Source of the DNA: Acrocarpospora phusangensis
GTDB lineage: Bacteria > Actinomycetota > Actinomycetes > Streptosporangiales > Streptosporangiaceae
Length of the DNA stretch: 64,000 bases
Assembly (NCBI RefSeq): GCF_016862995.1
Contig: NZ_BOOA01000008.1
Coordinates: 62,001 to 126,000, forward strand
Direction: 5' to 3'
Numbering within the stretch: position 1 is the first letter of the stretch; every line of letters begins with the position of its first letter. This document shows positions 5,921-26,215 of this stretch, in pieces. A program made the position numbers and the translations under genes. The notes beneath the pieces were generated by a model. That model searched no databases, was not told the origin of the DNA, and worked only from the letters and a program-made list of their open reading frames with translations.

Positions 5921-5950
5921 CCGGATGGCGCCGGTCCCATCGGCTCGAGA

Positions 5951-5976
5951 ACGGCGCCCGCCGAGGCGGGCGCCGT
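5951..5976. terminator. Bidirectional hairpin between convergent genes
   Basis: Perfect 11-bp stem ACGGCGCCCGC / GCGGGCGCCGT with a 4-nt loop, lying between the stop of the I36-like gene and the stop of the kinase gene. No long U tract, as usual for actinobacteria. Confidence 0.7.
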
Positions 5977-5990
5977 GATCTCTGAGTAGA

Positions 5991-7856: not shown

Positions 7857-7862
7857 GGGCAG

Positions 7863-7868
7863 AGTTTA
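7863..7868 (-). promoter_or_regulatory. -10 element for leaderless kinase mRNA
   Basis: TAAACT on the minus strand lies six bases before the GTG at 7856, with no Shine-Dalgarno between them. Confidence 0.55.
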
Positions 7869-7936
7869 CGGGTGATTTGCCACCCACAGAGCGTGGGAAT
7901 CCCAAACCGAGATGCTTAAAAAGCTTTACTGAGTCT

Positions 7937-8921
<985 letters not shown>

Positions 8922-8929
8922 CTGTTCCC

Positions 8930-10054
8930 TCAATCGAATCGGGACGGATCGCACGCGGCCAGGAGCGGCGGGGCCGCCGAGCCGGTCAGCATCGCGGCGA
9001 TCGCGTCGGCCGTCACGGGCGACAGCAGCACGCCCGCCCGGTGGTGCCCGGTCGCCACGTACACGCCCGGCAGGCCGGTGGGGCCGATCAGGGGCAGGTT
9101 GTCGGGCGTGCCGGGGCGGAAGCCGGCCCTGGTCTCGGCGAGCTCCAGTTCGGCGATGCCGGGCACCAGCTCGCGGGCGTCCCTGAGCAGCTGGTAGACC
9201 CCGCCGGCCGTGACCCGCGGGTCGAAGCCCTGCTCCTCCATGGTCGCGCCGAGGGTGATCTCGCCGTTCTCACGCGGCACCAGGTAGACGGGCACGCCGT
9301 GCACCCAGCCGCGTACGCACGCCGACAGGAAGCCGCGCGGGCCGTGCAGGCGCAGGATCTGGCCCTTGACCGGCCGGACCGGCAGCCCGGGCAGCAGCGC
9401 CGCCGACCGGGCCCCCGAGGCGACCACGATCTGCTCGGCCGGTACGGCGCCCGCCGCGAGCCGTACCAGACCGGACTGGACCTTCACCGCCGGTTCGGAC
9501 ACGAACGTGGCGCGCGCCCGCGCGAGGGCCGCGCACAGGGCGGGGGCGAGCAGCCGCGGGTCCACCCAGGCGTCGTCGCGGGCCAGCAGGCCGCCGCGGA
9601 CCGAGGGCGACAGCATGGGCTCGCGCTGGCGGCACTCGCGGCCGGTCAGCCGCTCCACCCGCAGGCCCAGCGTCTCCTCGAACCCCGCCAGGTCCTCCAG
9701 CTGGGCCAGGTCGTCGGCGTCGAAGGCGAGCTCCAGCGTGCCGTCGGTGCGGTAGTCCAGCGTGCGCCCGCTGGCCTCCTCCAGCTCGGTACGGAAGGAC
9801 GGCCACCGGGCCAGCGAGGCCAGCCCCAGCCGGAGCAGCGGCTCCTCGGTGAAGGTGGTCTCGCTGACGGGGGCCAGCATGCCCGCGGAGGCGTACGTCG
9901 CGCCACGCCCGGGATCCGGGTCGACGACCGCGACCCGCAGCCCTCTCAGCGCGGCCCGCCACGCGATGGACAGGCCCACCACGCCGGCGCCCACGACGGC
10001 CACGTCGAAAACGGAATTCGGAGTCGGGCTTTCCGAAATTGCGGATTCAGGCAC
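8930..10054 (-). CDS. thiO: Glycine oxidase ThiO
   Basis: A 374-residue FAD-dependent amine oxidase of the DAO family that makes dehydroglycine for thiazole formation. The N-terminal dinucleotide motif VVGAGVVGLSIAWR and the C-terminal GPTGLPGVYVATGHHRAG flavin-binding segment are clear. The frame can be read to an ATG at 10093, but those 13 codons fall in the conserved 3' part of the TPP riboswitch. The GTG at 10054 directly follows the riboswitch with an AAGGGAG site, so it is the likely start. Confidence 0.92.
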   Translation of the reverse strand: MPESAISESPTPNSVFDVAVVGAGVVGLSIAWRAALRGLRVAVVDPDPGRGATYASAGMLAPVSETTFTEEPLLRLGLASLARWPSFRTELEEASGRTLDYRTDGTLELAFDADDLAQLEDLAGFEETLGLRVERLTGRECRQREPMLSPSVRGGLLARDDAWVDPRLLAPALCAALARARATFVSEPAVKVQSGLVRLAAGAVPAEQIVVASGARSAALLPGLPVRPVKGQILRLHGPRGFLSACVRGWVHGVPVYLVPRENGEITLGATMEEQGFDPRVTAGGVYQLLRDARELVPGIAELELAETRAGFRPGTPDNLPLIGPTGLPGVYVATGHHRAGVLLSPVTADAIAAMLTGSAAPPLLAACDPSRFD

Positions 10055-10150
10055 CGCGCTCCCTTCGCCGGCATTACCCGGATCAGGTGTCATAGCGGTC
10101 GAGAACCTGGAGAGTTCTCCTCTCAGCCCGGTCAGCCGGACTCCCGCGCG
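10055..10150 (-). promoter_or_regulatory. TPP riboswitch (THI element) upstream of thiO-thiS-thiG
   Basis: The minus strand carries the conserved GGGCTGAGAGG block and, 3' of it, ACCTGATCCGGGTAATGCCGG, whose core matches the TPP aptamer. A five-base P1 helix can form between CGCGC (10146-10150) and GCGCG (10055-10059). The 3' P1 strand lies between the GGGAG ribosome site and the GTG start, so ligand binding should block translation initiation. Confidence 0.93.
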
Positions 10151-10162
10151 TCTTACGCCACC

Positions 10163-10168
10163 AGCCTA
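10163..10168 (-). promoter_or_regulatory. Candidate -10 of the thi operon
   Basis: TAGGCT on the minus strand places transcription start a few bases upstream of the TPP aptamer. No clear -35. Confidence 0.3.
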
Positions 10169-10273
10169 GTCGTGTTCGGCGCCGCAACGCACAACACGCA
10201 ATTCACATACTGTGCGCGCTACTTACCCAATTTGTTACCCAATCTCCATTGGCGAGTGCCCCGCTCCGCAATC

Positions 10274-10279
10274 TAAGGT
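10274..10279 (+). promoter_or_regulatory. -10 element for leaderless oxidoreductase mRNA
   Basis: TAAGGT six bases before the GTG at 10286; a TTGGCG hexamer lies 19 bases upstream. No Shine-Dalgarno. Confidence 0.55.
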
Positions 10280-10285
10280 CAGGGC

Positions 10286-11455
10286 GTGGATCACGTCGTG
10301 GTGGTGGGAGCCGGTCTGGCCGGCATCAGGAGCATCGAGGCGTTGCGGGCCCACGGGTTCGCCGGCCGCATCACGCTCGTCGGGGAGGAGCCCCATCGGC
10401 CCTACGACCGTCCCCCGCTCTCCAAGGCGGTGCTGCTCGGGGCCGCCGACTCCTCGGTGGTCGACTCCGACCTGGACGCGCTGGACGTCACCCTGCGGCT
10501 CGGCACGGCCGCCAAGGGCCTGCGCGAGGGCGTGCTGGAGACGACCGACGGAGAGCTCCAGTTCGACGGTCTCGTGGTCGCGACCGGCGCCACGCCGATC
10601 CGGCTGCGCGGCGAGGGCCACCAGCACGTGCTGCGCACCATCGACGACGCCCTCGCCCTGCGCGCCAAGCTCCTCCCGGAGACCCGGGTGGTGGTCATCG
10701 GCGCGGGCTGGATCGGCGCCGAGGTGGCCACCGCCGCCGCCCGCGCGGGCTGCCAGGTGACCGTCGTCGAGGCCGCCGACGCGCCGCTGGCCGGCGCGCT
10801 CCCGGTCGGTGCCTACACGATCCCCTGGTACGCGGAGGCCGGCGTGGAGCTCCGGCTCGGCACCAAGGTCGGCACCGTCGATCCGGACGGCCTGACCCTG
10901 CTCACGGGCGAGCGCATCCCGGCCGACGTGGTCGTCACCGGCGTCGGCGTACGGCCCGCGGTGGCCTGGCTGGAGGGCTCCGACGTGGAGCTGGACAACG
11001 GCGTCCTGGTGGACGAGCACCTGCGCACCTTCGCCCCCAACGTGGTCGCCGTCGGCGACTGCGCCAACTGGTGGTCGCGCCGGTTCGGCCGCCGGATGCG
11101 GATCGAGCACTGGGACAACGCGCTCAACGGCCCCGACGTCGCCGCCGCCACCCTCATGGGCGAGCAGGCCGTCTTCGACCCGGTGCCGTACTTCTGGTCC
11201 GAGCAGTTCAACCACATGGTCCAGTACGCCGGGCACCACGCCGGGGCCCGCATGGTGCTGCGCGGCGACCCGGAGCGGGACGCCGGCTGGTCGGTCTGCT
11301 GGCTGACCGACGGGCATCGCCTCAGCGCCATCCTCACCGTCGACCGGCCCCGTGATTTACTTCAGGGCCGCAGGCTCGTCGAAAGCCGCCAGAGAGTCGA
11401 CGTGGCACGGCTCGCCGACCCCGGCGTGACCCTGCGTGACTGCACTGTTGCGTAA
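10286..11455 (+). CDS. Ferredoxin/rubredoxin reductase-type NAD(P)-FAD oxidoreductase
   Basis: A 389-residue pyridine nucleotide-disulfide oxidoreductase of the ferredoxin reductase type. FAD site VVVGAGLAGIRSIEALR at the N-terminus, the PYDRPPLSK segment typical of this family, a second Rossmann motif VVIGAGWIGAEVATAAAR (about 135-152) for NAD(P)H, and the AVGDCANW flavin motif, followed by a reductase C-terminal domain. It probably passes electrons to a ferredoxin or P450 partner not encoded nearby. Divergent from thiO, with its own leaderless promoter. Confidence 0.9.
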   Translation: MDHVVVVGAGLAGIRSIEALRAHGFAGRITLVGEEPHRPYDRPPLSKAVLLGAADSSVVDSDLDALDVTLRLGTAAKGLREGVLETTDGELQFDGLVVATGATPIRLRGEGHQHVLRTIDDALALRAKLLPETRVVVIGAGWIGAEVATAAARAGCQVTVVEAADAPLAGALPVGAYTIPWYAEAGVELRLGTKVGTVDPDGLTLLTGERIPADVVVTGVGVRPAVAWLEGSDVELDNGVLVDEHLRTFAPNVVAVGDCANWWSRRFGRRMRIEHWDNALNGPDVAAATLMGEQAVFDPVPYFWSEQFNHMVQYAGHHAGARMVLRGDPERDAGWSVCWLTDGHRLSAILTVDRPRDLLQGRRLVESRQRVDVARLADPGVTLRDCTVA

Positions 11456-11894: not shown

Positions 11895-12584
11895 GTGACT
11901 GAAGAGAATGCCCGGCAGCGTCTTTCGCGCGCCCTGCTCTACCTGTGCACCGACTCCCGGCGGGACCGCGGCGACCTCGACGAGTTCCTGGACGCCGCGC
12001 TCGCGGGCGGGGTCGACATCCTCCAGCTCCGGGAGAAGGGGCTGGAGGCGCGGGAGGAGCTCGCGCTGCTCGAACGGTTCCGTGCGGCCTGCGACCGGCA
12101 CGGGGCGCTGCTGGCGGTCAACGACCGGGCCGACCTGGCGTACGCGGCCGGGCTGGCGGGGTTCGCCCCCGACGTGCTGCACCTGGGTCAGGACGACCTG
12201 CCCGTCGCGGCCGCGCGGGCGATCCTCGGCTCCGGCGTGCTGATCGGCAGGTCCACGCACGCCGACGCGGAGGCTTCGGCGGCGGACGTGGAACCCGGTG
12301 TGGACTACTTCTGCTGCGGTCCGATCTGGCCGACCCCGACCAAACCGGGCCGCCCCGCCCCGGGCCCCGGCCTGCTCCGCCACGCGGCGACCTTGAGCCG
12401 CCCGTGGTTCGGCATCGGTGGCATCGACCTCGCCAACCTCGACGAGGTCCTGTCGTACGGCGCCCGGCGCGTGGTCGTCGTGCGTGCGATCACGGAGGCG
12501 AGCGACCCGAAGGCCGCCGCCGCCGAGTTCAAGCGCCGGCTGAATCAGGCCGGGCCGCTCAGTCCTCCCCTCGGAGGGCTTTGA
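11895..12584 (+). CDS. thiE: Thiamine-phosphate synthase ThiE
   Basis: A 229-residue TIM-barrel enzyme joining HMP pyrophosphate and thiazole phosphate. Visible family motifs: LQLREKG (substrate phosphate), [22 protein letters not shown], and [15 protein letters not shown] in the C-terminal half, ending with GIGGI. GTG start. Its 3' end overlaps convergently with the last gene of the GTPase operon by 26 bp. It completes the thiazole branch started by thiOSG on the other strand. Confidence 0.93.
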
Positions 12585-14847
12585 GCACCTGGTCGGGTGC
12601 CAGCGCGAAGACGACCACGACGTCGCGTTCGTCCGGCTTCTTGGGCACGTGCAGCACGCAGGGGCAGTTCTTGACGGCTTTGAGTCCGTCCAGGGCCGTT
12701 TCCGCGTTGGCTTGGGTGAGCTGTCCCGTAGTGTCGCGGCAGTCGCCCGCGCCTGCGATCAGGCTGACGCAGGGCGGTGCCTCGGCTCCGTGGAGGGGTG
12801 CGGCGATGGCCGCGAGCGCCTGGGCCAGGATCACCGGTGACACGGTGGAGCACTTACTCGAGTCGTCTTCGCAGTTCTTAACGGAAGTGACGCTCGTTTC
12901 GAGAAGCCCGATCTGGTTCAGGTGGGATTCGTCGCCGGTCAGTCCGAGCTTGGCCCGGTACTCCTGATGCCACCATTTCTCGTCGGTCTCGCTGAGCGGG
13001 CACGTGTAGGGGTGGTACTGCCCGTATCCGCCGTAGCACGTGTTCGGGGTGCTCTCCACCAGGCGGTCGATCAGCTTTCTCAGGTGGCTGACCGGCTGTG
13101 GCAGGAACGGGTCGGCGTTTCCGGCCAGTGCCGTGATGTCGCCCGTCCGCCAGTTGACCGTCACCACGAGGCCGTCGGCGCCGCCGAGCGCTTGTTCGGC
13201 GGCGGTCTGCGTGGCCGGGTCGATGGTGAGCCGGTGCGGGACGGGCCGGCACCACCAGGTGACGGCCGGAATCCGGCAGTCGGCCGCTGACGGCCTGGCC
13301 TGGTCGAGGGTGGTGGCCAGGGGCTCGTTTCCGGCGCGGTCGAGTTCCGTTCCGTCGGCCGCGAGCAGGGCGCGCGGTGGGATCGGGGACGGGGGAGCCG
13401 TTCCGACGGCGATGGTGCCGGCCGCGATCGCGGGGACGAGGATCAGGACCGGGATGAGGGGCAGGCCACGCCGGGGGCGGTCCGCTCGGGCCGCGCCCAT
13501 GGCCAGGCCGAGGGCGGCGAAGACGGTGAGCAGGGCCACCGGTTGGGCGGTCGGCAGGAACGGGGTGACCGAGCGGGGGAGGGAGGGCAGCCAGAGCGCC
13601 GCCAGGCCGTACAGGCAGGAGGCGGTGAACGACCAGGCGATGCCGGCCGACCAGAGTCCGGCCAGGGAGGTGTTCATGGAGATGGTCCGGCCGATCACCG
13701 TGGCGGCGACCAGCGTGGACAGCGCCAGCACGAGCGCCACTCCGGCCAGGCCGAAGTCGAGTTCGAGCTGGGCGAGGACCCCGCCGGGACCGAAGTCACC
13801 CACCGGGGCGACGCCGGATCCAGGCCCCGAGCCGAAGTCGCCGCCGAGGCGGGTGGCCGTTTCCGCCGTGGTGGCCAGCCGGTCCAGGCCGAGGAAAGGT
13901 ACGGCGGTGAGGCCCCACAGTCCGGCCAGGGCCGTGACGAGGACCCCGAACGTGCTCAGGGCGAGCCAGACGGCCCGGCCGCGTCTGGCGGCGGCGTACA
14001 TCGGTACCGCGCCCGCCAGGGCGCTCACCGCCAGGCCCAGGTCCCGGGTGAAACCGGCCACGCACCAGACCGCCACCACGATCACGGCCGCTCCGAAGAC
14101 CGGTTCGCGGGCGGCTCCCGCGCCGAGCCAGCCGGCCAGCAGGCCCAGCAGGCCGGCCACCAGGAACAGTTCGGCTCCGGTGCTCCTGCCGTCGGGGATC
14201 CAGGAGGCGATCGCGGCCACCAGGACGGCGAAGGCCAGCGCGGCGGCGAAACCCGGTCGCCAGGTGAGGTGGCCGGCGGCGTCGGCGGCTCCCAGGAGCA
14301 GCAGGATCGCGCCCGCGTACACCAGGACGGCCAGGGCCACCGGGACGGGTGTGCGCGCCATCGTGGTGAGGTAGCCGAGCGCGGCCAGCACGGTCAGCGG
14401 CCCGGCGACGCCGAGCAGCGGCGCACGTCCCGGCTCGCGGTCCCGGCGGGCGACGGCCAGCAGCGCGGGCAGCACGAGCAGCGCGCCCGCCGCTCCGGCC
14501 AGCAGGGGACCGGGGGTCTCCACGTCCGGGCGGAAGCCTTCCACTGAGGCGACGTACCAGGCCAGGAGCGCGCCGGACAGCACCGCCCAGAGCAGCGCCG
14601 GGCCGACCCGCATGGCTGGGGCGGCCGAGGGCGGAGAGGGACGCCGGACCTGGATGGTGCGGTCCGGGTCGATCTCGGCTGTGGAGGCTGCGGAGCTCGT
14701 GGCCGCCATGGAGCCGGTAGAGCCGGTGGAGCCGGTGGAGCCGGTAGAGCCGGTGGGGGCCGTGGCGCGGGTGGCGGAGGTAGCGGGGACGGCGGAGGTG
14801 GAGGCCGTGGCGGGGTTGGCGGGGCGGCGCCGGGAGCGGCCGTTCAT
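12559..14847 (-). CDS. Large membrane protein resembling a SEDS glycosyltransferase fused to a degenerate PBP-like domain
   Basis: A 762-residue protein. A Thr/Ser/Gly repeat-rich N-terminus (about 1-65) is followed by roughly 13 hydrophobic segments (about 80-510) with a [18 protein letters not shown] stretch reminiscent of FtsW/RodA, then a soluble domain. That domain contains [17 protein letters not shown] and [16 protein letters not shown], which resembles the beginning of a class B penicillin-binding domain. The expected SxxK, SxN and KTG motifs are not seen, so it is probably non-catalytic. ATG overlaps the upstream stop (ATGA). It is the last gene of the seven-gene operon. The SEDS/PBP relation is inference from short motifs. 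Confidence 0.8.
14711..14755. repeat. Five-copy 9-bp tandem repeat in the SEDS-like gene
   Basis: GAGCCGGTR repeated five times without interruption. On the coding strand it adds TGS triplets to the N-terminal tail. Repeat number can change without frameshift. Confidence 0.85.
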
Positions 14848-16463
14848 CGCGCCGCTCCCAGCAGGACGGAGAGGACGATCAGCGCGCCCGCGCCCAGGCA
14901 CATGACCAGCGCGTAGCGTACGTGGCCGTACTCCTCGCGGAGGCGTTGCCGCAGGCCGGGCCTGGTGGCCGGTGGTGGCCGGTAGTCGATCGGGATGCCT
15001 TGCTCGGCGCACCACCGACGACCGAGCGCGCCCATGAAGTCGTCCCCGGCGATCTCCTGATTGAGCGTTCGCATCAGCTCCCGCACCCGGTCCAGCGGCG
15101 TGTCCGGGTCCGCGATCTCCGCGAGGCCCGCCTCCGGCGACGTCCGGCCCGCTTTGGCGACCCGCGGCGAGAGCTGCCGCACGGTCGGATCCGCCGGGTC
15201 AGACGGCCCGAGCGGCCCGAGCGGCCCGAGCGGCCCGAGCGGCCCGAGCGGCCCGAGCGGCCCGAGCGGACTGTGGGGACTGAGCGCGTTGGCCGAATCG
15301 CCAGAACTGGCCGAACCGGCGAATCCGGGGGAACCACCCGAACTGAGCAAACCGGCAGATCCGCCCGAGCCGGCCGGGCCGCCTGAACCGGCAGATCCGC
15401 CCGAACCGCCCGAGCCGCCTGAACCGCCTGAACCGGCCGAACCGCTCAAGACGGCCGAACCGCTCAAGCCGCCCGAACCGGCCGAGCCGGCCGAACCGCT
15501 CAAGCCGGCAGATCCGCCCGATCCGCCCGGGCCGCCCGAGCTGGCCGAACCGGCAGATCCGCTCAAGCCGCTCGAATCGGCGGAACCGGTGGAGTGGGCT
15601 GGATTGAGTGAATGGATTGGCCTGGGAGGGCGGGGCGATTGCCAGGCTTCGAGGAGTTTTCGTGCCGGCTGCGCGCCTTCCGCCTGGTAGCACTCCAGCA
15701 GTTCGTCCACGTCCACGGCACCGGGCGGCTCGTCCGGCTCGGCGGCGGTCAGATCCACCACGGTCCGGTCCCCGACCGGCCCATACGGCAGCCGCGGCAT
15801 GAACATCACATTCGGCAGCCGGATATTTCGCAATCCGCCCGGAAAACTCTCGTAAGTCGAGAACGTCCACCGCCAGTGCGGCTGCTCCCACTTCAGGATG
15901 TCGAGCATGCCCCACAGCAGCGGCAGGCAGTCCGCCACCCCCAGCCGATCCGACAGCACCATCAGCGGCGTGGCCGGACGCGCCAGCGCCGACCTGATCA
16001 ATGGACGCAGCCCGGCGGGCAGGTCCCGCGCCGCCCGGCTCAGGCGCTCACGGCCCACCGCGACCTGATCCCGCAGCCCTTCGGCCGGCACCGCCCACAA
16101 CTGCGGCCGTGGATCGGCCCCGGGCCCGATCCACGACCACCCGTGCAAGCTCAGCGCGAGCCGGGCGCTGACCTGCGACTCCGGACCCACCAGCACGTGC
16201 GTGACGTCCTCGCGCGAGTTCGTGTTCGGCCCCCTGGCCCGGTGCAGGATCGCCCCCCGCGACTCGAACACCAGGTAGGCCACACTGCTGTCCGGCCGGT
16301 CCCGCTCACCGTCGTCCTGCATCATCACGTACGGATCGAGCTGCCCGGTCCACCAGTCCAGCGGGTCACGCTGGGGCAGCGAGGTGGCCACCGGGCCGAC
16401 CCCGGCGTACCCGACCAGATCCCGGGAGCTGGTCGCGAACACGATCTGGTCCAGTACGTCCAT
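14844..16463 (-). CDS. GTPase-associated protein with low-complexity linker and C-terminal membrane anchor
   Basis: A 539-residue protein I do not firmly recognise. Residues 1-260 form a globular domain (DQIVFATSSRDLVGYAGVGPVATS at the start) that brings to mind the GTPase-associated GAP1-type proteins of NTPase-centred conflict operons, from memory only. Residues about 270-400 are a Gly/Ser-rich linker ending in seven LGP repeats. A helical segment (about 440-500) and one C-terminal membrane helix (about 515-535) follow. Start overlaps the GTPase stop as TGATG and its own stop overlaps the next start, so it is translated in step with the GTPase. Confidence 0.75.
   Translation of the reverse strand: MDVLDQIVFATSSRDLVGYAGVGPVATSLPQRDPLDWWTGQLDPYVMMQDDGERDRPDSSVAYLVFESRGAILHRARGPNTNSREDVTHVLVGPESQVSARLALSLHGWSWIGPGADPRPQLWAVPAEGLRDQVAVGRERLSRAARDLPAGLRPLIRSALARPATPLMVLSDRLGVADCLPLLWGMLDILKWEQPHWRWTFSTYESFPGGLRNIRLPNVMFMPRLPYGPVGDRTVVDLTAAEPDEPPGAVDVDELLECYQAEGAQPARKLLEAWQSPRPPRPIHSLNPAHSTGSADSSGLSGSAGSASSGGPGGSGGSAGLSGSAGSAGSGGLSGSAVLSGSAGSGGSGGSGGSGGSAGSGGPAGSGGSAGLLSSGGSPGFAGSASSGDSANALSPHSPLGPLGPLGPLGPLGPLGPLGPSDPADPTVRQLSPRVAKAGRTSPEAGLAEIADPDTPLDRVRELMRTLNQEIAGDDFMGALGRRWCAEQGIPIDYRPPPATRPGLRQRLREEYGHVRYALVMCLGAGALIVLSVLLGAAR
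15204..15266. repeat. Seven-copy perfect 9-bp tandem repeat
   Basis: CGGCCCGAG repeated seven times without interruption. On the coding strand it encodes Leu-Gly-Pro triplets inside the linker of the GTPase partner. A less regular Gly/Ser-coding repeat tract lies next to it at about 15290-15600. Confidence 0.9.
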
Positions 16464-17554
16464 CAGGATTCCCCCTGGTCGCCGCGCTCGAAGCCGGGCA
16501 GCAGCCCGGTCATGGCGAGGATGGACAGCAGCGGCAGGAGCACCCGCTGCGGGCTGGCTCCGCGGGGCAGCTGGTCGCCGCGCGGGTTGGTGCCGGTGGC
16601 CGACACGAAGTGCAGCGTGCTGTGCGCGGAGGCGTGGAAGGGGCCCAGCCAGGCTTCCGCGCCGTGCTGGTAGAGGAACGCGTACGCGTCCCGGCTCTCG
16701 GCCGCGATGGTCTCGGCCGAGAAGCGCTCAGGTGTGACCGGCGAGCGCCACCAGCGGTCCACCGGCGGCTGGAAGCGCAGCAGGTCGGCCTTGGCGATGG
16801 CGACCGTGGTCGGGATGGACAGCAGGTTGCGCTCGGAGCGCAGCTGGTCCAGGACCACGCCGAAGGCGTCGTCGCCCAGCTGGGCCGCCTGCCCGGCGGC
16901 GTCGCCGAAGGGGACCAGCGCGGGGGTGGCCCTGACCGGGTCCACCACGAAGATCAGCGCGTCCGCCGCCATCAGGAAGCGGGCGCCCTTCTCGGTCTTC
17001 TGCAGGTCCTCCCCGGCCACGTCGAAGAAGGCGACCGTACGGGTCCGCGCGTCGGCGGCGGAGGCCGAGCCGATCACGAACGCGTCCGCGAAGCCGACGA
17101 CCGCCGGGGGAGTCTGCGGCAGCACCTGCCCCTTCTCCAGCAGCCGGCGTACGCCCTCCAGGAACCGTTTGTGCAGCCCGATGTCGAGCGCGCTCACGTT
17201 CAGCCCGAACGGCTGCAGCCCGCCCCTGACCAGGGCGCCGACGATGGCCGCCAGCAGGTGCGTCTTGCCCGTCGCGTACGTGCCGACCAGCCCGATGATC
17301 AGCGGGTTGGGGTCGGTGCCGTACGTGGAGGCCATGTAGTGCGCGTCGGTGTCCCCCGACGGATTGGGGCACTTCTTGTACGCCGTGCGCAGCAGGTGGT
17401 TCCGTTTGACCCGGTCCCCGATCCTGCTCAGATCCAGCGGCTGGTACTGCCCGTTCACCATCTCGTACATGTCCTGCTCGTCCCAGACGAACTGGTCCAG
17501 GCAGATCGGGCAGCGGATCAGCCGCACCGTGACACTGCCGTTCTTCTTGGCCAC
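16463..17554 (-). CDS. TRAFAC-like P-loop GTPase with N-terminal zinc ribbon
   Basis: A 363-residue protein. The N-terminus has CPIC (15-18) and a further Cys at 62, probably a small zinc-binding element. Walker A is GTYATGKT (91-98), the switch II/Walker B region reads FFDVAGED (176-183), and AIAKADLL is the likely base-recognition motif. These are features of translation-factor-type GTPases used in bacterial signalling or conflict operons rather than ribosomal GTPases. GTG start with a GAGGAG site nine bases after the pseudokinase stop; its own stop overlaps the next start. Soluble, no membrane segment. Confidence 0.85.
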   Translation of the reverse strand: MAKKNGSVTVRLIRCPICLDQFVWDEQDMYEMVNGQYQPLDLSRIGDRVKRNHLLRTAYKKCPNPSGDTDAHYMASTYGTDPNPLIIGLVGTYATGKTHLLAAIVGALVRGGLQPFGLNVSALDIGLHKRFLEGVRRLLEKGQVLPQTPPAVVGFADAFVIGSASAADARTRTVAFFDVAGEDLQKTEKGARFLMAADALIFVVDPVRATPALVPFGDAAGQAAQLGDDAFGVVLDQLRSERNLLSIPTTVAIAKADLLRFQPPVDRWWRSPVTPERFSAETIAAESRDAYAFLYQHGAEAWLGPFHASAHSTLHFVSATGTNPRGDQLPRGASPQRVLLPLLSILAMTGLLPGFERGDQGES

Positions 17555-17563
17555 GACGGCTCC

Positions 17564-18601
17564 TCACAGCTCGGCGATCAGACCGGCGGCCACCAGGCCG
17601 CCGATGACGAGGACCAGCCCGATCAGCGCCCAGCGCAGCGGGAACCGCCTCGCGGGCGGCGGGGGCGGCTGCGGCGGACCGGTCCTGCGCGCGACCTCGG
17701 CGTCGTAGCGGCGCAGCCCTTCGGCGAACCGCTGGTCGGTGCCGTCCTGGGCGGCCAGCACCAGCGGCTCGGCCCGCAGCCGGGCCAGCATCGCCGCCGC
17801 GGTCGGCCGGGACCGCTCCTCGGGATCGAACGCCTGCTGGAGCAGGTTGCGCAGGGCGGGGCCGCCCACGTCCAGGTCGGGGCCGTGGTCCATGGCCTCC
17901 ACCCGCTTCCCCGTCGCGATCATGAACACCAGCAGGGCGGCCGACCAGATGTCGGAGCCCGGATGGGCCGGATGGCCGCTGCCCCGCCGCTCGGGCGCCC
18001 CCCACGGCGCCGGGAGCGGCGGGGCGGCCTCGCCGCGCAGGGTGGCCCGGCCGAAGCCGCCCATGCGGACGCGGTCCCCGTCCCAGGTCACGGCAGCCCC
18101 GTCGGCGTGGCCGTCAAGGCCGCCGATGCCGCCGATGCCGCCGTGCACCACGCCGGCCCGGTGCAGCGCGTCCAGGCCGCGGAACAGGCTCACCTGGAAG
18201 GCGCGCTGCTGGTCCAGCAGGAGCTGCCCGGCGAACGCGGCCGCGGGCTCGTCGGAGTAGGCGGGGAAGACCACGCACGGCTCCTCGCCGTCCGCGTCGT
18301 ACGCGACCAGCCTGGCCAGTTCGTCCGGGTACGTCTGCGCGCCCAGCCGCCTGGTCAGCCGGACCCCGATCCTGATCTCGTTCTCCAGCAGCGCGTACAG
18401 GCCCGGGTCGGACGCGCCGGCCGCGCGGGGCACGTAGCGCATGGTGAAGCGCTCGCCCGTGGTCCTCCGGACCAGGGTGCGCTCCGCGAACGGCCCGGTA
18501 CCGGGCTCCAGGGGCGGGGAGTCGAGCGCGGTCAGCGACAGCGGCTTGCCGTACGGGTCGAGGAGGAAGATGCGCTCGGTGGTGTGGTCGGTGGGCTTCA
18601 C
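17564..18601 (-). CDS. Membrane-anchored pseudokinase
   Basis: A 345-residue protein with a protein-kinase-like fold in its first 270 residues (LFRGLDALHRAGVVHGG, then APERR...GSDIWSAALLVFMIATGKR). The catalytic HRD is replaced by HGG and the DFG by GFG (VRMGGFGRATL), and no VAIK Lys is evident, so phosphotransfer is unlikely. A proline-rich segment (PPQPPPPPARR) leads to one C-terminal membrane helix, giving a tail-anchored topology with the domain in the cytoplasm. The GTG start overlaps the upstream stop (GTGA). In this operon it is probably a scaffold or sensor for the GTPase or tubulin-like protein. Confidence 0.85.
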   Translation of the reverse strand: MKPTDHTTERIFLLDPYGKPLSLTALDSPPLEPGTGPFAERTLVRRTTGERFTMRYVPRAAGASDPGLYALLENEIRIGVRLTRRLGAQTYPDELARLVAYDADGEEPCVVFPAYSDEPAAAFAGQLLLDQQRAFQVSLFRGLDALHRAGVVHGGIGGIGGLDGHADGAAVTWDGDRVRMGGFGRATLRGEAAPPLPAPWGAPERRGSGHPAHPGSDIWSAALLVFMIATGKRVEAMDHGPDLDVGGPALRNLLQQAFDPEERSRPTAAAMLARLRAEPLVLAAQDGTDQRFAEGLRRYDAEVARRTGPPQPPPPPARRFPLRWALIGLVLVIGGLVAAGLIAEL

Positions 18602-20817
18602 CGTTGGGTCTCCCTGTCGACGGGGGTGATCAGCCGGACCACGCCCGGCCGGAGGGGCACCAGGCGGAGCGTTCCCGCGGCGTGCGGCGAGCGGGTCCAG
18701 ACCAGGTCGCCGACGCCGTGCCCCAGGCCCTGGACGGCGCGCGGCGCGAACCGCACCACCTGGGCCAGTTCGGCGGAGACCTGGAGGAAGTGCAGGTCGG
18801 CGTCGGCGCAGAACTGGAGCATGAGCCCGCCGGCCGGAGCGTTCACGGCGGAGCGCACGTGCTCCGGCGTGCCCCAGACGTTGTGGATCAGCACTTCCCT
18901 GGCGGGGGAGCCGCTGCGCGCGAACGCCGGCGGCTGGTGCACGCCGGTCCGCCGGAGGTGGTCGTCGTAGTCCCTGAGGATCTCGGCCAGGCCGTGCGAG
19001 ACCGAGTCGCCCAGGCCCTGGAAGGTGCCGTCGCCGAGGCGCGACCAGGCCGGCTCCAGCGCCTTCTCCACCGCGTCGACCAGGTCGCCGGTGACCACGT
19101 CGGCCAGCCCGCCGCCGTGGCCCTGCACGCCCCGGGCGCCGCCGGACCTGCCGCGCAGCGGGCGCAGCCCGGCCGCGTGCTCGGTCAGCCTGGCCGCGCA
19201 CTGGTCGAGCACCCAGGAGACGGTCCTGGCGGCGTCCGAGGCGTACCTGCGGGCCTCGCGCATGGCCCACTCGTCGTAGGCGACCTGGGCGGCCAGCGCC
19301 AGCAGGGCGGCGGCGGCCCGTTCCGCGGCGCCGGTCTCGACCCGGCGGGCCCAATCCCTGGCGGCCTTGGCCCACCACAGGGCGGGGATGACCGTCAGGA
19401 GCAGCGCGGCCAGGCCGGCCGGGACGTACCAGAGCAGGGCGGGCAGTCCGGCGGCGAGGAACACGCCCGCGGCGGCTCCGGCGGCGCTCGCGGCCAGGTG
19501 GGCGAGGAGCCACGGGCCGGCCGCGCGGGCCAGGCCGGTACGCCCGCGGGGGACCGGCACGCGGGCCCGCAGCAACCAGACGGCCAGCAGCCACACCGCG
19601 GCCGCCGCGCCGCCGGCCACCGGGCCGAACGGGAAGGCGGTCAGCAGGGGGACGAGGAGGCCCGCGGTGAGCATGGCCGGCCAGAGCGGGCGGAGCGGGA
19701 AGGCGGCGGGCCGGGCGAGTTCGTCGAGCACCCGGTCCGGGCAGACCGCCTCGACCCTGGGCAGGAAGGTGGCGCTGCCCACCGGCACCGCCCGGTCGGC
19801 GAACTCGCGCAGCTGCTCGGCGATGGCGGGCAGCGACTGCCGCCGCTCCAGCGCCTCCGTGACCGCCGCCTCCAGCTGCCGGGACACCTGCGCGCGCTCG
19901 GCCTGGGCGCTGCCCGCCTCGACGCCGAGCCGCTCCAGCAGGCCCAGGTCGGGGCGGGCCAGCCGGGTGCCGTGCAGCGCGTCGAAGGCCGAGCGCAGGG
20001 TGGCGCGCAGCGTCGCCAGGGTCTGGCGCAGCTCGGCGAGGCGGCCGTGCAGGGTCCGTACGGCCAGGCCCCGGCGGCGGAACCCGGCCAGCTGCCGCAG
20101 CGCGGTGTCCGCCGCCGCCACCTGGGTGGCCGCCAGGTCGCTGAGCGTCCTGATCTGCCCGGTGGAGCGCAGCACCAGCTCCGGCCTGATCCGGGCGCCC
20201 GCCTCGGCCGTGTAGACGGACAGCGCCTCCGGGCGGGTGGTGGGCAGCGCGACGTCCGTGAGCTGGGCGATCACCTGGAGCCTGGTCTCGGTCAGCAGCT
20301 CCCCGCCGACGTCCCCGGTGACGGTGAGCAGGCCGGGGCTGGCGACGCCGTCGGGGACGCGCCGGGCCAGCTCCTGCACCCGCGCGTACACCTCGGGCAC
20401 GCAGAGCACGTCGATCAGGCCGTTCAGGTCCAGGCCGTCCTGGCGGAACGCCTCGGCCCCGCCGATGCCGTCCATCCGCCAGCCCACCCCGGACGGGTCG
20501 CCCGCCCACAGGATGGCCAGGCTCGCGGAGGCGGGCGCCACGCTGTCCAGGGCGTGGCGCCGGTCGCCGGTGGGGGACGGGCCCACGGCCAGGCACATCA
20601 TCTGGTCGAACCAGGTGGAGCCGCTGATCCTGGCGTACACGGCCTGGCGTTCCGGCAGCCGGACCGTGTCGTCGATCACCAGGGCGGAGGCCCGGCCCGC
20701 GCCCTGCGCGCGGAAGCGCTCCACCCGCGCGGCCACCAGGCCCTCCACCTTCGCCTCCTCGGCGCCGCGCAGGTCCAGCACCAGGATCGTGCCGGCGTCC
20801 GGGTTCCCCGTCCTCAT
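18598..20817 (-). CDS. Unknown membrane protein of the tubulin/GTPase operon
   Basis: A 739-residue protein with no family that I recognise. The N-terminal 250 residues look globular; about 250-345 is predicted coiled coil (heptads rich in Leu, Ala, Arg, e.g. GRLAELRQTLATLRATLR). Four hydrophobic segments lie at about 365-480. The C-terminal 230 residues are soluble, beginning with a long helical, Ala-rich part. Start overlaps the tubulin stop (ATGA) and stop overlaps the pseudokinase start (GTGA). It could link the cytoplasmic NTPases to the membrane. Start site is well fixed by the overlap. Confidence 0.8.
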   Translation of the reverse strand: MRTGNPDAGTILVLDLRGAEEAKVEGLVAARVERFRAQGAGRASALVIDDTVRLPERQAVYARISGSTWFDQMMCLAVGPSPTGDRRHALDSVAPASASLAILWAGDPSGVGWRMDGIGGAEAFRQDGLDLNGLIDVLCVPEVYARVQELARRVPDGVASPGLLTVTGDVGGELLTETRLQVIAQLTDVALPTTRPEALSVYTAEAGARIRPELVLRSTGQIRTLSDLAATQVAAADTALRQLAGFRRRGLAVRTLHGRLAELRQTLATLRATLRSAFDALHGTRLARPDLGLLERLGVEAGSAQAERAQVSRQLEAAVTEALERRQSLPAIAEQLREFADRAVPVGSATFLPRVEAVCPDRVLDELARPAAFPLRPLWPAMLTAGLLVPLLTAFPFGPVAGGAAAAVWLLAVWLLRARVPVPRGRTGLARAAGPWLLAHLAASAAGAAAGVFLAAGLPALLWYVPAGLAALLLTVIPALWWAKAARDWARRVETGAAERAAAALLALAAQVAYDEWAMREARRYASDAARTVSWVLDQCAARLTEHAAGLRPLRGRSGGARGVQGHGGGLADVVTGDLVDAVEKALEPAWSRLGDGTFQGLGDSVSHGLAEILRDYDDHLRRTGVHQPPAFARSGSPAREVLIHNVWGTPEHVRSAVNAPAGGLMLQFCADADLHFLQVSAELAQVVRFAPRAVQGLGHGVGDLVWTRSPHAAGTLRLVPLRPGVVRLITPVDRETQR

Positions 20818-23800
20818 CGGCGCCACTCCTCCAGCGTGAGCAGGTCGGGCCTGATCGCCTGGTGCAGCGACGGGAACGGCGTGCGCAGCGCGGCCGGGAG
20901 GGTGTCCCGCCACAGCTGCAGCAGGTGGTCGGCCCAGCCGCGGCCGGACTCGGGCAGCTTCGGGATCATCTCGGTGAGCAGCTTGATCTCCTCCCGGGCC
21001 ATGCCCACGAACTGGTGGTAGAGCTCGTCCGGCGCCTTCGGCTCCGAGGTCGCGCCGATCGGGGTGCTCTTCATGAGCTCCTCGCAGAACTGGCGGCGGG
21101 TGGGCTGGTCGTCGCGTACGGTCCACAGCTCGTACGCGCGCAGGATGTTGCCCCACGAGGAGGCCCGCTCGTAGCGGGACAGCGGCAGGGTCATCGTGGT
21201 GGCGTTGTCGGCGGGCAGCCTGATCCGGATCTTGGAGGGCGAGTTGGCCGGCCCCTCGACCACGCTGACCTGGCCGTTCCACAGCGCGCAGAGCAGGTGG
21301 TGGAGCACCCGCACCCGGTCGTCCGGGGTGCTGGTGAGGTAGCCGTAGTCGTAGCCGAGGCGCTGCCGCCAGCGCAGGAAGTCCTGCGGCTCCTCGCGTT
21401 CGGTGGCGTCCGCCCAGTGTTTGAGCACCTGCCGTACCTCCGGCACCTCGGTGACGCTCATGGAGGTGCGGAACAGCACGACCGCGATCGACTCGGTGTT
21501 GGTGGCGGTGAACTCCGGCTCCAGGCCCTGCCCCTTCGGCAGGTGCAGCTTCTCCTTCAGGAACCGCTCCAGGTCCGGGTTGGGGGCCGGCGCCGGATAG
21601 GAGATGAGGATCTTCAGCCGTCCGTTGCCCTCCGGGGAGAACCCGCCGGGCAGCAGGGCGGCCAGCTTCTGCTGGAACTGGACCAGGTCGGCGTCGGAGA
21701 CCTTGGGGCCGTCCTTGCGGGCGGCCCTGGCCAGCAGCCCCGACAGCGGCGGCAGCAGCGGGTGCTCCGCGTGCTCGTCCTGGATCAGGTCCTTGACCTC
21801 GGTCTTCACCAGGGTCAGCAGCTCCTGCACGGAACGTTCCGCGTCGGCGGACTTGCCCTTCACGTACGCGTCGCGCCAGCCCTTGTCGATCCGGGTCACC
21901 GCGTACACGATCTCGGCCTCGTCGGCGGTGTTGCGCAGCTGCTCCCGGTAGCGGGGGCTGGTCACGAACAGCACCCGGACGTTCTCGTAGAACACGGCCA
22001 GGTCCTTGCCGTGCGGCGGCAGCAGGTAGCTGACGGCGGTGCGCGGCTTGTACAGGTCGCCCACCCGCCGCTCGAACCGCTCGGGCTCGTCCCTGGCGTG
22101 CCGGAGGAACGCGCCGGTCTGCTCCTCCAGCTGGCGTTTGACCCGGTTGAGCGGATCGCTCCAGACCTGGCGCTTGATCCCCCAGTGGGAGTGCCAGATC
22201 ACCCGGGTACGCCACTCGTACCACCGATCCTGGAGCTCCAGCTGTGCCTGTACGGCGGGATCGCTCCACGACGCCCGCCGGAACGGCCCGGCCTGCGGGC
22301 GTCTGGGCTGCGGCGGGGCCATCGTGACGCCGGGCGGCGGGGGCGGCTCGGCGCTGAGCCGGTCCAGCATCCCGCTGACGCCCTGCTGGCTGAGCACGCT
22401 CTGGAGCAGCGGGTGCCCGTTGACGACCCGGCTCAGCCGGAACGGGTCGACCTCGCCGAGCAGCTCCTCCACCGCGCGCGCCGGGTCGAACGCCCGCGCC
22501 ATCTCGTGGCTGCCCGCGCTCAGCTGCTGGTCCAGGGAGCGCAGGTTGGCGTCCATGTACTTGAGCCGCTCCTGGAGGGCGACGAAGACGGCCTCGGCGC
22601 CCTTGGGCGGCTCGGGCGGCGGGTTGACCACCCTGGGGGCGCGGCGCAGCACCTGGGAGATGTGCGCGGCCTCGAAGAAACGTTCCACCAGCTTGTCGTT
22701 GCTCTCGCCGCCGCCCGGCGGGGGCGACATGAGGGTGTTCACGGCGTTGGCGACGATCCGGGAGCTGACGATGTCGGCCAGGTCGTCCCGCGGCACGGTC
22801 ATCGAGGCGACCAGGCCGGTGGACACGCCACGGCTGCCGATCCCGGTCGGGGCGGGCACCTCCCGCTCCACGCCCAGGTTGATGAAGCTGTCGGCGAAGG
22901 ACTGGGCCAGCGTGTCGCTGACCCTGGCCCGCTCCTGCTGGACCTGGCCGTCGGTGCCGATGAGCGACAGGATCAGGGAGACCGCCGAGCGGTGCAGGTC
23001 CTCCCGGTCCATGCCGGGCGTACGGCTGAACAGGAACGCGGTCTGGATGGTGGAGGCGCGCAGCCGTACGTCCCCGAGCTCGGGGTAGCGGATGGAGAGC
23101 ACGCCGTCGGCGGGCGCGGCGTCCGGGTCGGTCTGCGCGCCCTGCCCGTTCTGGTCGTCCACCAGGCGGAACAGGTCGAGCAGGCCGCGGCCGGAGTTGA
23201 GGATGGCCCGCCGCCCGCCGCCGAGGCCCTCCGGGAACGCCGACGGCATGATGACCAGCGGGAAGATCCTGGCCGTGTGCCGGGAGCCCTTGATCACATG
23301 GCCGAGCAGGTGGAGGAAGTCGTAGAAGATGCCGGAGCCGGTGCCGCCCGCCATGGAGAACGCCACGTAGACGTCGACCGAGTCGGTCTGCCGGCCGCCG
23401 AGCCGCTGGAGCTCGCCGCCGGACTGGCTGATCCGGTCCAGCGCCCGGCTGATCGGCCCCTCGACCGAGCCGGGGCTGTTCCTGACGGTCTCGAACAGGG
23501 CCGCCCTGGCCGCCGTCGGGAGCTGGCCCGCGCCCCGGTGGAGCGGGGCCACGAGCGGTTCGTGGCGCGGTGGCGGCAGCCAGCCCTCGACGTACTGGGG
23601 GATGCTGGTGCGCAGGCTGCGGGCCACCTCCGGATAGGTGTCCAGCTGGGGCACCAGGTCGGTGACCAGGTGCATGGTCCGGCGGGCCGCCAGCGCGTGC
23701 GCGTCCGACGGGACCACCGCGCCCTCCAGGCGGCGCAGCTCGGCGTCGTTGAGGTCGGCGTAGACGAACTGCACGCAGGCGGGCAGCTGGAACGGCAGGT

Positions 23801-23942
23801 ACTCCTGGTTGGCGAGGTCGTCGCGGAGCTTGGTGCCGTTGGGACCGCAGAGCTCCTCGCGGAGCCGCCGCTCGAGCGACGCGCCGATGGCGCAGCCGGT
23901 CCCTCCGAGCCCGACGAACAGCATGGGTTGATAGATGTTCAT
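20814..23942 (-). CDS. Divergent tubulin/FtsZ-like protein (Tubulin_2 type)
   Basis: A 1042-residue cytoplasmic protein. The N-terminus has the glycine-rich GLGGTG (11-16), and AGGTGSG at 198-204 is the tubulin/FtsZ signature loop that binds the nucleotide phosphates. This spacing fits the large tubulin-like family found in actinobacterial and cyanobacterial gene clusters, far longer than FtsZ (about 400). The remaining 700 residues are of unknown fold, with proline-rich linkers near 545-575. ATG start 32 bases after the VWA stop, with a GAGAGGA site somewhat far upstream. Whether it polymerises cannot be judged from sequence. Confidence 0.88.
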   Translation of the reverse strand: MNIYQPMLFVGLGGTGCAIGASLERRLREELCGPNGTKLRDDLANQEYLPFQLPACVQFVYADLNDAELRRLEGAVVPSDAHALAARRTMHLVTDLVPQLDTYPEVARSLRTSIPQYVEGWLPPPRHEPLVAPLHRGAGQLPTAARAALFETVRNSPGSVEGPISRALDRISQSGGELQRLGGRQTDSVDVYVAFSMAGGTGSGIFYDFLHLLGHVIKGSRHTARIFPLVIMPSAFPEGLGGGRRAILNSGRGLLDLFRLVDDQNGQGAQTDPDAAPADGVLSIRYPELGDVRLRASTIQTAFLFSRTPGMDREDLHRSAVSLILSLIGTDGQVQQERARVSDTLAQSFADSFINLGVEREVPAPTGIGSRGVSTGLVASMTVPRDDLADIVSSRIVANAVNTLMSPPPGGGESNDKLVERFFEAAHISQVLRRAPRVVNPPPEPPKGAEAVFVALQERLKYMDANLRSLDQQLSAGSHEMARAFDPARAVEELLGEVDPFRLSRVVNGHPLLQSVLSQQGVSGMLDRLSAEPPPPPGVTMAPPQPRRPQAGPFRRASWSDPAVQAQLELQDRWYEWRTRVIWHSHWGIKRQVWSDPLNRVKRQLEEQTGAFLRHARDEPERFERRVGDLYKPRTAVSYLLPPHGKDLAVFYENVRVLFVTSPRYREQLRNTADEAEIVYAVTRIDKGWRDAYVKGKSADAERSVQELLTLVKTEVKDLIQDEHAEHPLLPPLSGLLARAARKDGPKVSDADLVQFQQKLAALLPGGFSPEGNGRLKILISYPAPAPNPDLERFLKEKLHLPKGQGLEPEFTATNTESIAVVLFRTSMSVTEVPEVRQVLKHWADATEREEPQDFLRWRQRLGYDYGYLTSTPDDRVRVLHHLLCALWNGQVSVVEGPANSPSKIRIRLPADNATTMTLPLSRYERASSWGNILRAYELWTVRDDQPTRRQFCEELMKSTPIGATSEPKAPDELYHQFVGMAREEIKLLTEMIPKLPESGRGWADHLLQLWRDTLPAALRTPFPSLHQAIRPDLLTLEEWRR

Positions 23943-23974: not shown

Positions 23975-26215
23975 TCAGTACAGAAGGTCGTCCCAGGGGT
24001 CGGCCGGGCGCGGCGGATCGGGGTCGGGCCCGGAATAGGGCCCGGAGTACGGCACCGTCTGCGGCTGCGGGGAGCGTCCGCGGGCGTCGCGGAACTCCAG
24101 GGCCAGGTCGCCCTGGATGATCCCGGGCTCATTGAGGCCGAGCCTGAGCACGTCGCCCATGGGCGTGCGCAGCACGATCCGGCCGCGCTCGCCCCGGCGC
24201 GCGACATAGGTGTCCGCCGGCCCGGTCGGCGTGTCCAGCCGGGCCGCGCCGTCGGTCCGCACCGCGAACCGGAACTCGTCGGAGCCCTTCCTGCCGTTCA
24301 GCTCGAAGACCGCCGTCTCGCCCTGGAGCAGGACCGCGGTCAGCCCGCCCACGTCCCGGTCGGCGGCCCGGCGGCGGGCCAGCAGGAGCAGGAGCGCCCC
24401 GAGCGCGGCCAGCGCCACGGCGAGGCCGGTCCACAGCCACCACAGGCGGGCCAGCAGGCTGGGCGGCTCGGTCACGGTGAGCGGGAAACCGCCCTCGAAG
24501 TGCACCACCTCGTCCTGGCCCTCGCCCTGCACCAGCTTGATCCGCCCGGCCCAGGAGCCCAGCTCGGAGCCCTCCCCGACCACGATCTCGAACTCGGTAC
24601 GGCTCCGCCCCGCCGCGGGCACCGCCACGACCGGCGGCCGTACCGACACCGCCGCCCCGGACGGCAGGCCGGACACGGTGAGCCGGAGCGAGAGCGGCGT
24701 GGTCAGCGTGTTCTCCACCTCGACGGCGCCCTTGACCGCCCCGCCGGGGGAGACGGGGGCGGGATCCACGGTCAGCTGCGTCTTCACGGGCTTCCCGCCG
24801 GTGGAGACGTTCATCGGGAACGGCACGCTGTCCCCGACCAGGCCGGGCCCGCCGACCTCGCCGACCAGGGTGATGGTGCCCGTGGCGGCCTCTGGCACCT
24901 GGAAGGTCCCGGAGAACAGCCCGTCCCCGCCCGCGGCGTCGGGCGCCTGGCCGGAGTCGTTGAGCGGCACCTTCATGTCCTTGAGGCCGGGTCCGCTCGC
25001 CGCCGCGCTGAACGAGATGCCTTCGACCTCGGCGAGGTCCTCGGGGGCGAGCTCGTCGCGGGTGACCAGTTTGAGCTGGACGGTCACACTCTGGCCGGGC
25101 TCGGGCGCGGCGTCGCTCACCGAGATCTCGGAGTCCAGCTGGCCCTGCCAGGTCACCCGGGCGCTCACGTTCTGGCTCCCGCCGCCCGCGGGGGCGGTCA
25201 GGTGCACCGTCCATTCGCCCGGTTTGGGGTTGTTGACGCGCAGCGACTCGACCGCGGCGTTCTGCCCGCTGAGCACGAACGTGGAGCCGTCCATCGGCAC
25301 GGCCGGGTTGACCAGCCGCCCGTCGGGGTCGGTGTAGGAGACCTGGATCCGGGGGTCGCGCTTGATGACCTCGATCGAACCCGCGCTGGCGATCTTGGGG
25401 ATGGTGACCTGGAGCTCGTCCCGGCCGCCCGGGTCCAGCACCGTGTCGTCGGTGTCGGTGATGACCGAGCACTGGGCGGCGGCGATGGCCTCGCTCACGG
25501 CGTTGTCCATCTCGGCGGCGGTGGCCCGCACGATCGCCTTCGGCGTGGGGGCGTCGGCGTTGCAGCGGCCCTGCGCGCCGCCCACGGCGTAGCTCCTCAG
25601 CGCGTCCGGGTCCACCTCGCCGAAGCCGAGCGGCCAGACCTGGATGCCGCGCGCCTCCAGGTCCGGCAGCACGCGCTCGGTCAGCCGGGCGGCGGCCACG
25701 GCGTCGCGGTCGCCGTCGCCGAAGGAGGGGTCGTCGCCCACGTGGAGCTTCCCGTCGGTGAGCAGGAAGATGATCCTGGCCGTACGGTCCCCCGAGTCGC
25801 TGAACGCCGAGCCGGCCGTGCTCAGGGCGTTCACGAAGTCGGTGTGGTAGCCCTCCTCGGCGGTGCGGAGCTTGAGCCCGCCGACGCACTGGGTGAGGTC
25901 CTGGCGGCCGGTCTCGTTCAACTCGGTCATCGGGCAGACCTTGGCCACGCGGCCCCGGGAGCCCTGGCTGCCGAAGCCGAAGATCGCCACCTTGGCGTCC
26001 TCGGCCAGCACGGCCAGCGGGATGCGGGCGGCGGCCTGCCGCTCCTGGGCGACGCCCTCCGCGCTCAGGCTGCCCGACTCGTCCACTAGGACGACGATCT
26101 CCACGCGGCGGGGTTCCGCCTGCTCAGCGGTGGGTCCTGGGCTGGGCTGAGGGGAGGGCGGCGCCGGGGACGCGGCCAGCAGCAGCGCCGTGATCAGCGA
26201 AACGATCTGTGACAC
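23975..26215 (-). CDS. Secreted, membrane-anchored VWA-domain protein
   Basis: A 746-residue protein and the first gene of the operon. Signal peptide (1-16, hydrophobic), Pro-rich spacer, then a von Willebrand A domain with an intact MIDAS start DESGS (45-49) and the IIFLLTDGKL segment that supplies further metal contacts. Beta-rich domains follow to about 590. One membrane helix (about 595-618) and an Arg-rich stop-transfer lead to a cytoplasmic tail of about 125 residues, of beta type. It may sense an extracellular ligand and signal to the cytoplasmic NTPases. GTG start with an AGGTGAG site. Confidence 0.87.
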   Translation of the reverse strand: MSQIVSLITALLLAASPAPPSPQPSPGPTAEQAEPRRVEIVVLVDESGSLSAEGVAQERQAAARIPLAVLAEDAKVAIFGFGSQGSRGRVAKVCPMTELNETGRQDLTQCVGGLKLRTAEEGYHTDFVNALSTAGSAFSDSGDRTARIIFLLTDGKLHVGDDPSFGDGDRDAVAAARLTERVLPDLEARGIQVWPLGFGEVDPDALRSYAVGGAQGRCNADAPTPKAIVRATAAEMDNAVSEAIAAAQCSVITDTDDTVLDPGGRDELQVTIPKIASAGSIEVIKRDPRIQVSYTDPDGRLVNPAVPMDGSTFVLSGQNAAVESLRVNNPKPGEWTVHLTAPAGGGSQNVSARVTWQGQLDSEISVSDAAPEPGQSVTVQLKLVTRDELAPEDLAEVEGISFSAAASGPGLKDMKVPLNDSGQAPDAAGGDGLFSGTFQVPEAATGTITLVGEVGGPGLVGDSVPFPMNVSTGGKPVKTQLTVDPAPVSPGGAVKGAVEVENTLTTPLSLRLTVSGLPSGAAVSVRPPVVAVPAAGRSRTEFEIVVGEGSELGSWAGRIKLVQGEGQDEVVHFEGGFPLTVTEPPSLLARLWWLWTGLAVALAALGALLLLLARRRAADRDVGGLTAVLLQGETAVFELNGRKGSDEFRFAVRTDGAARLDTPTGPADTYVARRGERGRIVLRTPMGDVLRLGLNEPGIIQGDLALEFRDARGRSPQPQTVPYSGPYSGPDPDPPRPADPWDDLLY

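Follow-up and report, generated by a model that had tools for sequence, protein, structure and literature searches.

The operon in the window

The window analysed here, a stretch of 64,000 nucleotides from Acrocarpospora phusangensis, carries on its complementary strand an operon of six genes in an order that recurs among actinobacteria, in which a vWA-domain protein is followed by a tubulin-like GTPase, a coiled-coil membrane protein, a pseudokinase, a DO-GTPase and a divergent GAP1-like protein. The vWA-domain membrane protein (positions 23975–26215; Pfam VWA, E 7.8e-7) has an intact DxSxS motif of the MIDAS, and the tubulin-like protein (20814–23942), with an intact GGTGSG loop, matches Tubulin_2 (PF13809) with an E value of 1.8e-60. 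Next comes a conserved membrane protein (18598–20814, start codon not fixed), to which a coiled-coil was assigned in the original prediction, and then the gene of primary interest (17564–18601), which starts with GTG and encodes a pseudokinase of 345 amino acids. Downstream lies the DO-GTPase (16463–17554), recognised by DO-GTPase2 (PF19993) above the cut-off (E 2.4e-10) and carrying intact P-loop, DxxG and KxD motifs. The two neighbours of the pseudokinase are therefore those first described. The stop codon of the coiled-coil gene overlaps the pseudokinase start as GTGA and a gap of 9 nt separates the pseudokinase stop codon from the GTG of the GTPase gene, and these junctions suggest that the pseudokinase and both neighbours are probably co-translated.

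The last gene (14844–16463) encodes a 539-residue protein consisting of a distantly GAP1-N2-like N-terminal region, a Ser/Gly-rich middle and a C-terminal hydrophobic helix. It gave no Pfam match, and a GAP1 match was absent from all 12 different downstream proteins scanned with Pfam. When its family was compared with GAP1-N2 proteins by hhalign, a probability of 85.9 was obtained (E 5.3e-6 over 202 columns), the best of four controls reaching 15.3 (E 0.0017). Since the protein lies beyond the reach of Pfam yet resembles GAP1-N2 proteins in profile comparison, the system is, on this evidence, best called divergent GAP1-N2-like. The low-complexity middle (about residues 290–450) generates matches to collagen-like adhesins that fall below cut-offs. 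The gene is overlapped by an 818-residue open reading frame on the same strand (12559–15015, start codon not fixed) which has many hydrophobic segments and a weak match to penicillin-binding protein 2 (E 0.0019), and was not found in the other loci compared. A separate GAP1-N2 protein that Pfam does recognise is encoded elsewhere in the genome (L131, G000:C30:20152-20544).

Across the loci compared, the P-loop, KxD and DxxG motifs of the GTPase are intact in 58 of 58 proteins (KxD and DxxG being read from alignment columns), the GGTGxG loop of the tubulin in 63 of 63 and the DxSxS motif of the vWA protein in 22 of 22, both also from alignment columns. These columns replaced overly strict pattern searches, which had recovered 12/63 tubulin, 13/22 vWA and 34/58 KxD motifs. 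Among the operon proteins with tested motifs, namely the GTPase, tubulin, vWA protein and kinase, the kinase alone is predicted to be dead.

Kinase fold and catalytic residues

The kinase domain of the window protein extends over about residues 10–300, and is followed by a Pro-rich linker and a C-terminal membrane helix. Direct reading and alignment bear out the original observation that HRD is replaced by HGG (residues 153–155, positions 18137–18145, complementary strand) and DFG by GFG (residues 182–184, positions 18050–18058, complementary strand). In the alignment, Arg55 occupies the position of the beta-3 Lys, the catalytic-loop Asn is missing and the catalytic loop is split by a 10-residue insert that is unique among 23 aligned orthologues. 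The single C-terminal membrane helix ascribed to the protein was recovered by hydropathy (about residues 324–343, positions 17573–17632, complementary strand) and is the only one present, with a maximum Kyte-Doolittle mean over 19 residues of 2.67.

Judged from sequence profiles, the protein is a kinase homologue, an assignment that is weak for the single sequence and secure at the family level. Alone, it matched Pfam Pkinase with an E value of 0.012, below the family cut-off; in alignment A1 all eight pseudokinase members matched, the best with an E value of 1.4e-9. A search of the PDB with the pseudokinase family profile gave a best E value of 3.8e-13 and the best 60 matches listed were kinases. 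Comparison of the family with active kinases of the same genomes by hhalign yielded a probability of 99.8 (E 3.9e-28), as against less than 1 for four neighbour families used as controls. The kinase fold first proposed is thus upheld by profile similarity to the protein kinase superfamily. AlphaFold2 models were of low confidence (mean pLDDT 47.6 for the window protein with five orthologues and 52.5 for an Acrocarpospora orthologue) because the alignments held few sequences, and neither a pocket nor an interface is readable from them, so they were excluded from claims about either. With the latter model, the better of the two, Foldseek returned no match at E ≤ 0.001; the matches listed were to kinases, weak, with TM scores of about 0.2–0.3, and were excluded as proof of the fold.

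The family comparison covered 59 pseudokinases, including the window protein. A set of 100 related genomes supplied seven orthologues, the others were taken from loci around Tubulin_2 genes, and duplicate records were left out before counting (L062, L063, L064 and L066, identical to L058, L059, L037 and L039, respectively). Two of the 59, the frameshifted L034 and the broken L067, were included in the motif table and excluded from trees. A Tubulin_2 locus was present in 28 of the 394 genomes surveyed for the class and in 43 of the 295 of genus g76. The class survey yielded 29 Tubulin_2 places, 26 of which were fetched; of the other three, the window's own (G000) was part of the comparison and two of G372 were left out; in the g76 survey 40 of 46 places were fetched and, among the other six, G120 corresponds to L033 and G241 to L032.

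None of the 59 pseudokinases carries all four of the beta-3 Lys, HRD Asp, catalytic-loop Asn and DFG Asp, whereas 22 of 22 active controls do. Singly, the Lys is kept in 11, the HRD Asp in 5, the Asn in 5 and the DFG Asp in 16. The scaffold residues are largely kept, with the alpha-C Glu found in 53, the HRD Arg in 55, the APE Glu in 54 and the RP Arg in 57. Conservation across the family also marks positions such as those of Glu107-Pro108 and Trp173 in the window protein, which may be considered candidates for an interface. An orthologue with both the HRD and DFG aspartates, the counter-example named in the original prediction, was sought among the 59 and none was found. Erasure of both motifs describes the window protein and does not extend to the family, in which one aspartate or the other may survive and never both. 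Inactivity, as predicted from these residues, is the rule of the family, and the route of loss differs between lineages. The GFG of the window protein probably arose late, given that the sequences closest to it in the trees (L057–L059 and L065) retain the DFG Asp. L009, L018 and L020 were excluded from the active controls because the motifs are absent from these too; they represent another kinase-like family found in relatives, where HRD reads HRA and DFG reads GFD, and this family is also predicted to be dead and falls outside the clade described below.

In the tree, all 29 pseudokinase rows form one clade with 100/100 support against 33 other kinase rows, and in an earlier tree 21 of 21 pseudokinases grouped together (100/99). 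The clade stands apart from active kinases and from MurJ-adjacent kinase-like genes. This single clade, together with the lack of the complete residue set in every member, sustains the view of a dead kinase and places the loss as ancestral to the whole clade. The seven orthologues from related genomes share 27–35% identity with the window protein. Values of dN/dS for the pseudokinase lie between 0.10 and 0.45 in nine informative pairs, broadly as for the GTPase and tubulin, and the value for L058/L059, from the window's own genus, is 0.15 and not near 1; by this measure the gene is under purifying selection. A further orthologue, from Nonomuraea gerenzanensis and outside the 59, was inspected by eye and shows HRR, TDL and a tail helix, followed by the GTPase. 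The same organism provided the sole match in a plasmid search, to a record of chromosome size.

By hydropathy, the C-terminal membrane helix is found in 7 of the 59 pseudokinases, and the tail is variable and absent from fused members. The term tail-anchored therefore suits the window protein and is not a trait of the family.

Association with the DO-GTPase and proposed role

Among these loci, which were found via Tubulin_2 or the pseudokinase itself, so that pseudokinase-free GTPases of this type are under-sampled, the DO-GTPase adjoins or is fused to the pseudokinase in 58 of 59 cases. The exception is L067 from Frankia canadensis (9110–10782), a second pseudokinase copy broken across two frames, where the GTPase was undetected in the fetched stretch. 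Pseudokinase and GTPase share one open frame in 31 of the 59, the profile-defined domains lying 8 to 84 residues apart, and 28 pseudokinases are unfused. In g76, 36 of the 40 fetched loci have both and 29 have them in one open frame; L031 and L033 are the other two fused forms. Locus L034 is closely related to the fused form L033, and a change of frame, either real or a sequencing error, occurs just ahead of its GTPase (7028–7987 and 5694–7355).

All 15 of the close-type Tubulin_2 loci with sufficient contig carry the pseudokinase, two of them in a single frame with the GTPase, and three further contigs end too early. Two loci (L060 and L061) have pseudokinase and GTPase with no detected tubulin and three (L081, L092 and L102) have the tubulin with neither, which suggests that the pseudokinase follows the GTPase and not the tubulin. 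The coiled-coil neighbour was also undetected in the downstream stretch of the latter three, and the genomes of L081 and L102 hold a full operon as well. Eight more distant Tubulin_2 loci lack a kinase-like open reading frame and four of these encode a DO-GTPase, implying that there the GTPase can work without the pseudokinase.

With half of the family combining the dead domain and an intact GTPase in one protein, regulation or docking of the GTPase is the simplest reading, and the kinase fold most likely acts as a domain that regulates or docks the GTPase without catalysis. On balance, we favour the proposal that the protein belongs, as pseudokinase subunit, to a tubulin-type DO-GTPase system of the divergent GAP1-N2-like kind, acting as a non-phosphorylating interaction or regulatory module that binds the DO-GTPase. 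It would perform no phosphorylation, the kinase fold being retained as a module for protein interaction and regulation which would bind the DO-GTPase, whether in cis or in trans, and it may control the nucleotide state of the GTPase or present this protein to the coiled-coil membrane protein and to the tubulin-like polymer. The window lineage has a separate pseudokinase, whose tail helix would tether the GTPase to the membrane; elsewhere the module is covalently linked to the GTPase or free. What we infer from sequence and gene context is the physical contact, the way in which regulation runs, the recruitment to the membrane and the part played by the system as a whole, whether as a conflict or a membrane-remodelling machinery, and the adjacency could come from a larger complex rather than from direct contact between pseudokinase and GTPase. 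The scaffold or allosteric switch suggested originally fits both adjacency and fusion and is retained as a putative role. Tentatively, and with rather less confidence, one may go further and consider the dead kinase to be of ancient origin and integral to a bacterial DO-GTPase as its regulatory domain, forming with it a module of one or two polypeptides that might control how a tubulin-like polymer assembles at the membrane of actinobacteria.

The protein could instead be a phospho-scaffold resembling MviN, in which an active Ser/Thr kinase modifies the linker or tail and an FHA-type partner is recruited, the GTPase being merely a neighbour. A possible partner is present in the window, in the form of an intact Ser/Thr kinase (5994–7865, complementary strand) with a long C-terminal extension resembling PASTA repeats. 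There is also a published actinobacterial precedent: in Mycobacterium tuberculosis, PknB phosphorylates the tail of the MviN pseudokinase, which recruits FhaA (PMC12599244). We consider this unlikely for the window protein, however, given that the MurJ-adjacent, MviN-like proteins of its relatives fall outside its clade, that the tail is variable and missing in fused members and that the GTPase fusion would be left unexplained. Equally unlikely is a role as decoy or sensor within a conflict system, where the dead kinase would bait an invader's kinase or kinase inhibitor and the resulting change would release the GTPase/tubulin assembly. Such a function would accord with the fast divergence of the family, evident in the low identities among the seven orthologues, with the placing of DO-GTPase/GAP1-N2/tubulin operons among predicted conflict systems and with the mostly inactive kinase domains that are components of sister vWA-MoxR systems (Kaur 2020, PMC7159879). 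Against it, the tubulin had no match among phage records and, of the six operon proteins, PADLOC matched only the pseudokinase (MkoA, 5.3e-8; PD-T4-6, 3.3e-4), perhaps through mere likeness to kinases.

Another enzymatic activity on the kinase fold, such as AMPylation or glutamylation in the manner of SelO or SidJ, seems very unlikely: the beta-3 Lys and DFG Asp, the residues reused by SidJ (PMC12599244), are indeed present in relatives L057–L059 of the window protein, but each is kept in only a minority of the family and the window protein lacks both. The weak Pfam score of the single sequence, and the broken (L067) and frameshifted (L034) loci, might be taken as signs of a decaying pseudogene or a chance open reading frame, but the low dN/dS values, similar to those of the neighbours, the conservation over several families and the 31 in-frame fusions with an intact GTPase among the 59 loci make this scarcely credible.

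The proposed regulatory module of the DO-GTPase would, if correct, represent a counterpart in prokaryotes, free of catalysis, to kinase-GTPase switches, of which LRRK2 is an example. The pseudokinase clade is tied by synteny and gene fusion to a partner whose GTP hydrolysis is easily followed, in actinomycetes that include named strains from culture collections, and the question of what a dead kinase does becomes reducible to a simple GTPase assay. It also provides a likely candidate for a regulatory subunit of the DO-GTPase/tubulin systems, for which the roles found in the published passages are predictions.

Relationship to known systems

Bacterial pseudokinases are experimentally largely unexplored, and the passages of a review devoted to them that were available make no mention of tubulin (PMC12599244). 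Like MviN/ActPs3 of that review, the window protein is an actinobacterial dead kinase, and a C-terminal membrane helix is frequent in MviN/ActPs3; in contrast to MviN/ActPs3, the window family has no link to MurJ, and membership was rejected on the basis of separate clades (100/100 and 98/98), the comparison being with MurJ-adjacent open reading frames of relatives and not with MviN itself. ActPs2 proteins are characterised by a change of HRD to HRN, a deletion in the DFG region and a 250-residue insert in the activation loop (PMC12599244). They share with the window member the dead kinase and the replacement of the beta-3 Lys by Arg, and C-terminal membrane segments are common among them; membership was likewise rejected, as HRN occurs in 1 of 59 (L037) and the 250-residue insert is absent. 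ActPs1 proteins show a relationship to Act1, frequent loss of the G helix and a PQQ domain (PMC12599244), and Pfam scans of the eight A1 pseudokinases detected no PQQ domain.

A literature search revealed, among the entries listed, no system closer than those compared here. The operons of FtsZl1 bring together genes for a tubulin-like protein, a vWA protein, a diverged GTPase and a protein kinase (Makarova and Koonin 2010, PMC2875224), all of which they share with the window operon, and the passages of that paper on the FtsZl1 operon kinases do not mention inactivity or fusion to the GTPase.

The surrounding DO-GTPase/tubulin system is already in print, GAP1-N2/DO-GTPase operons with tubulin having been described in actinobacteria (Kaur 2020, PMC7159879). 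There, active kinases belong to another, third theme, and in the passages compared no pseudokinase was found adjoining the tubulin-theme DO-GTPase or joined to it; one may appear in figures or supplements. The published tubulin theme also includes proteins with FNIII repeats, one fused to HRDC and one to vWA; our Pfam scan gave no match to FNIII or HRDC, while the vWA protein is present. The GAP1-like protein differs in being too divergent for the Pfam model. In its DO-GTPase, its tubulin-domain protein extended by a long C-terminal part, its membrane vWA protein, its GAP1-like protein and its actinobacterial spread, the window system resembles the one described by Kaur 2020.
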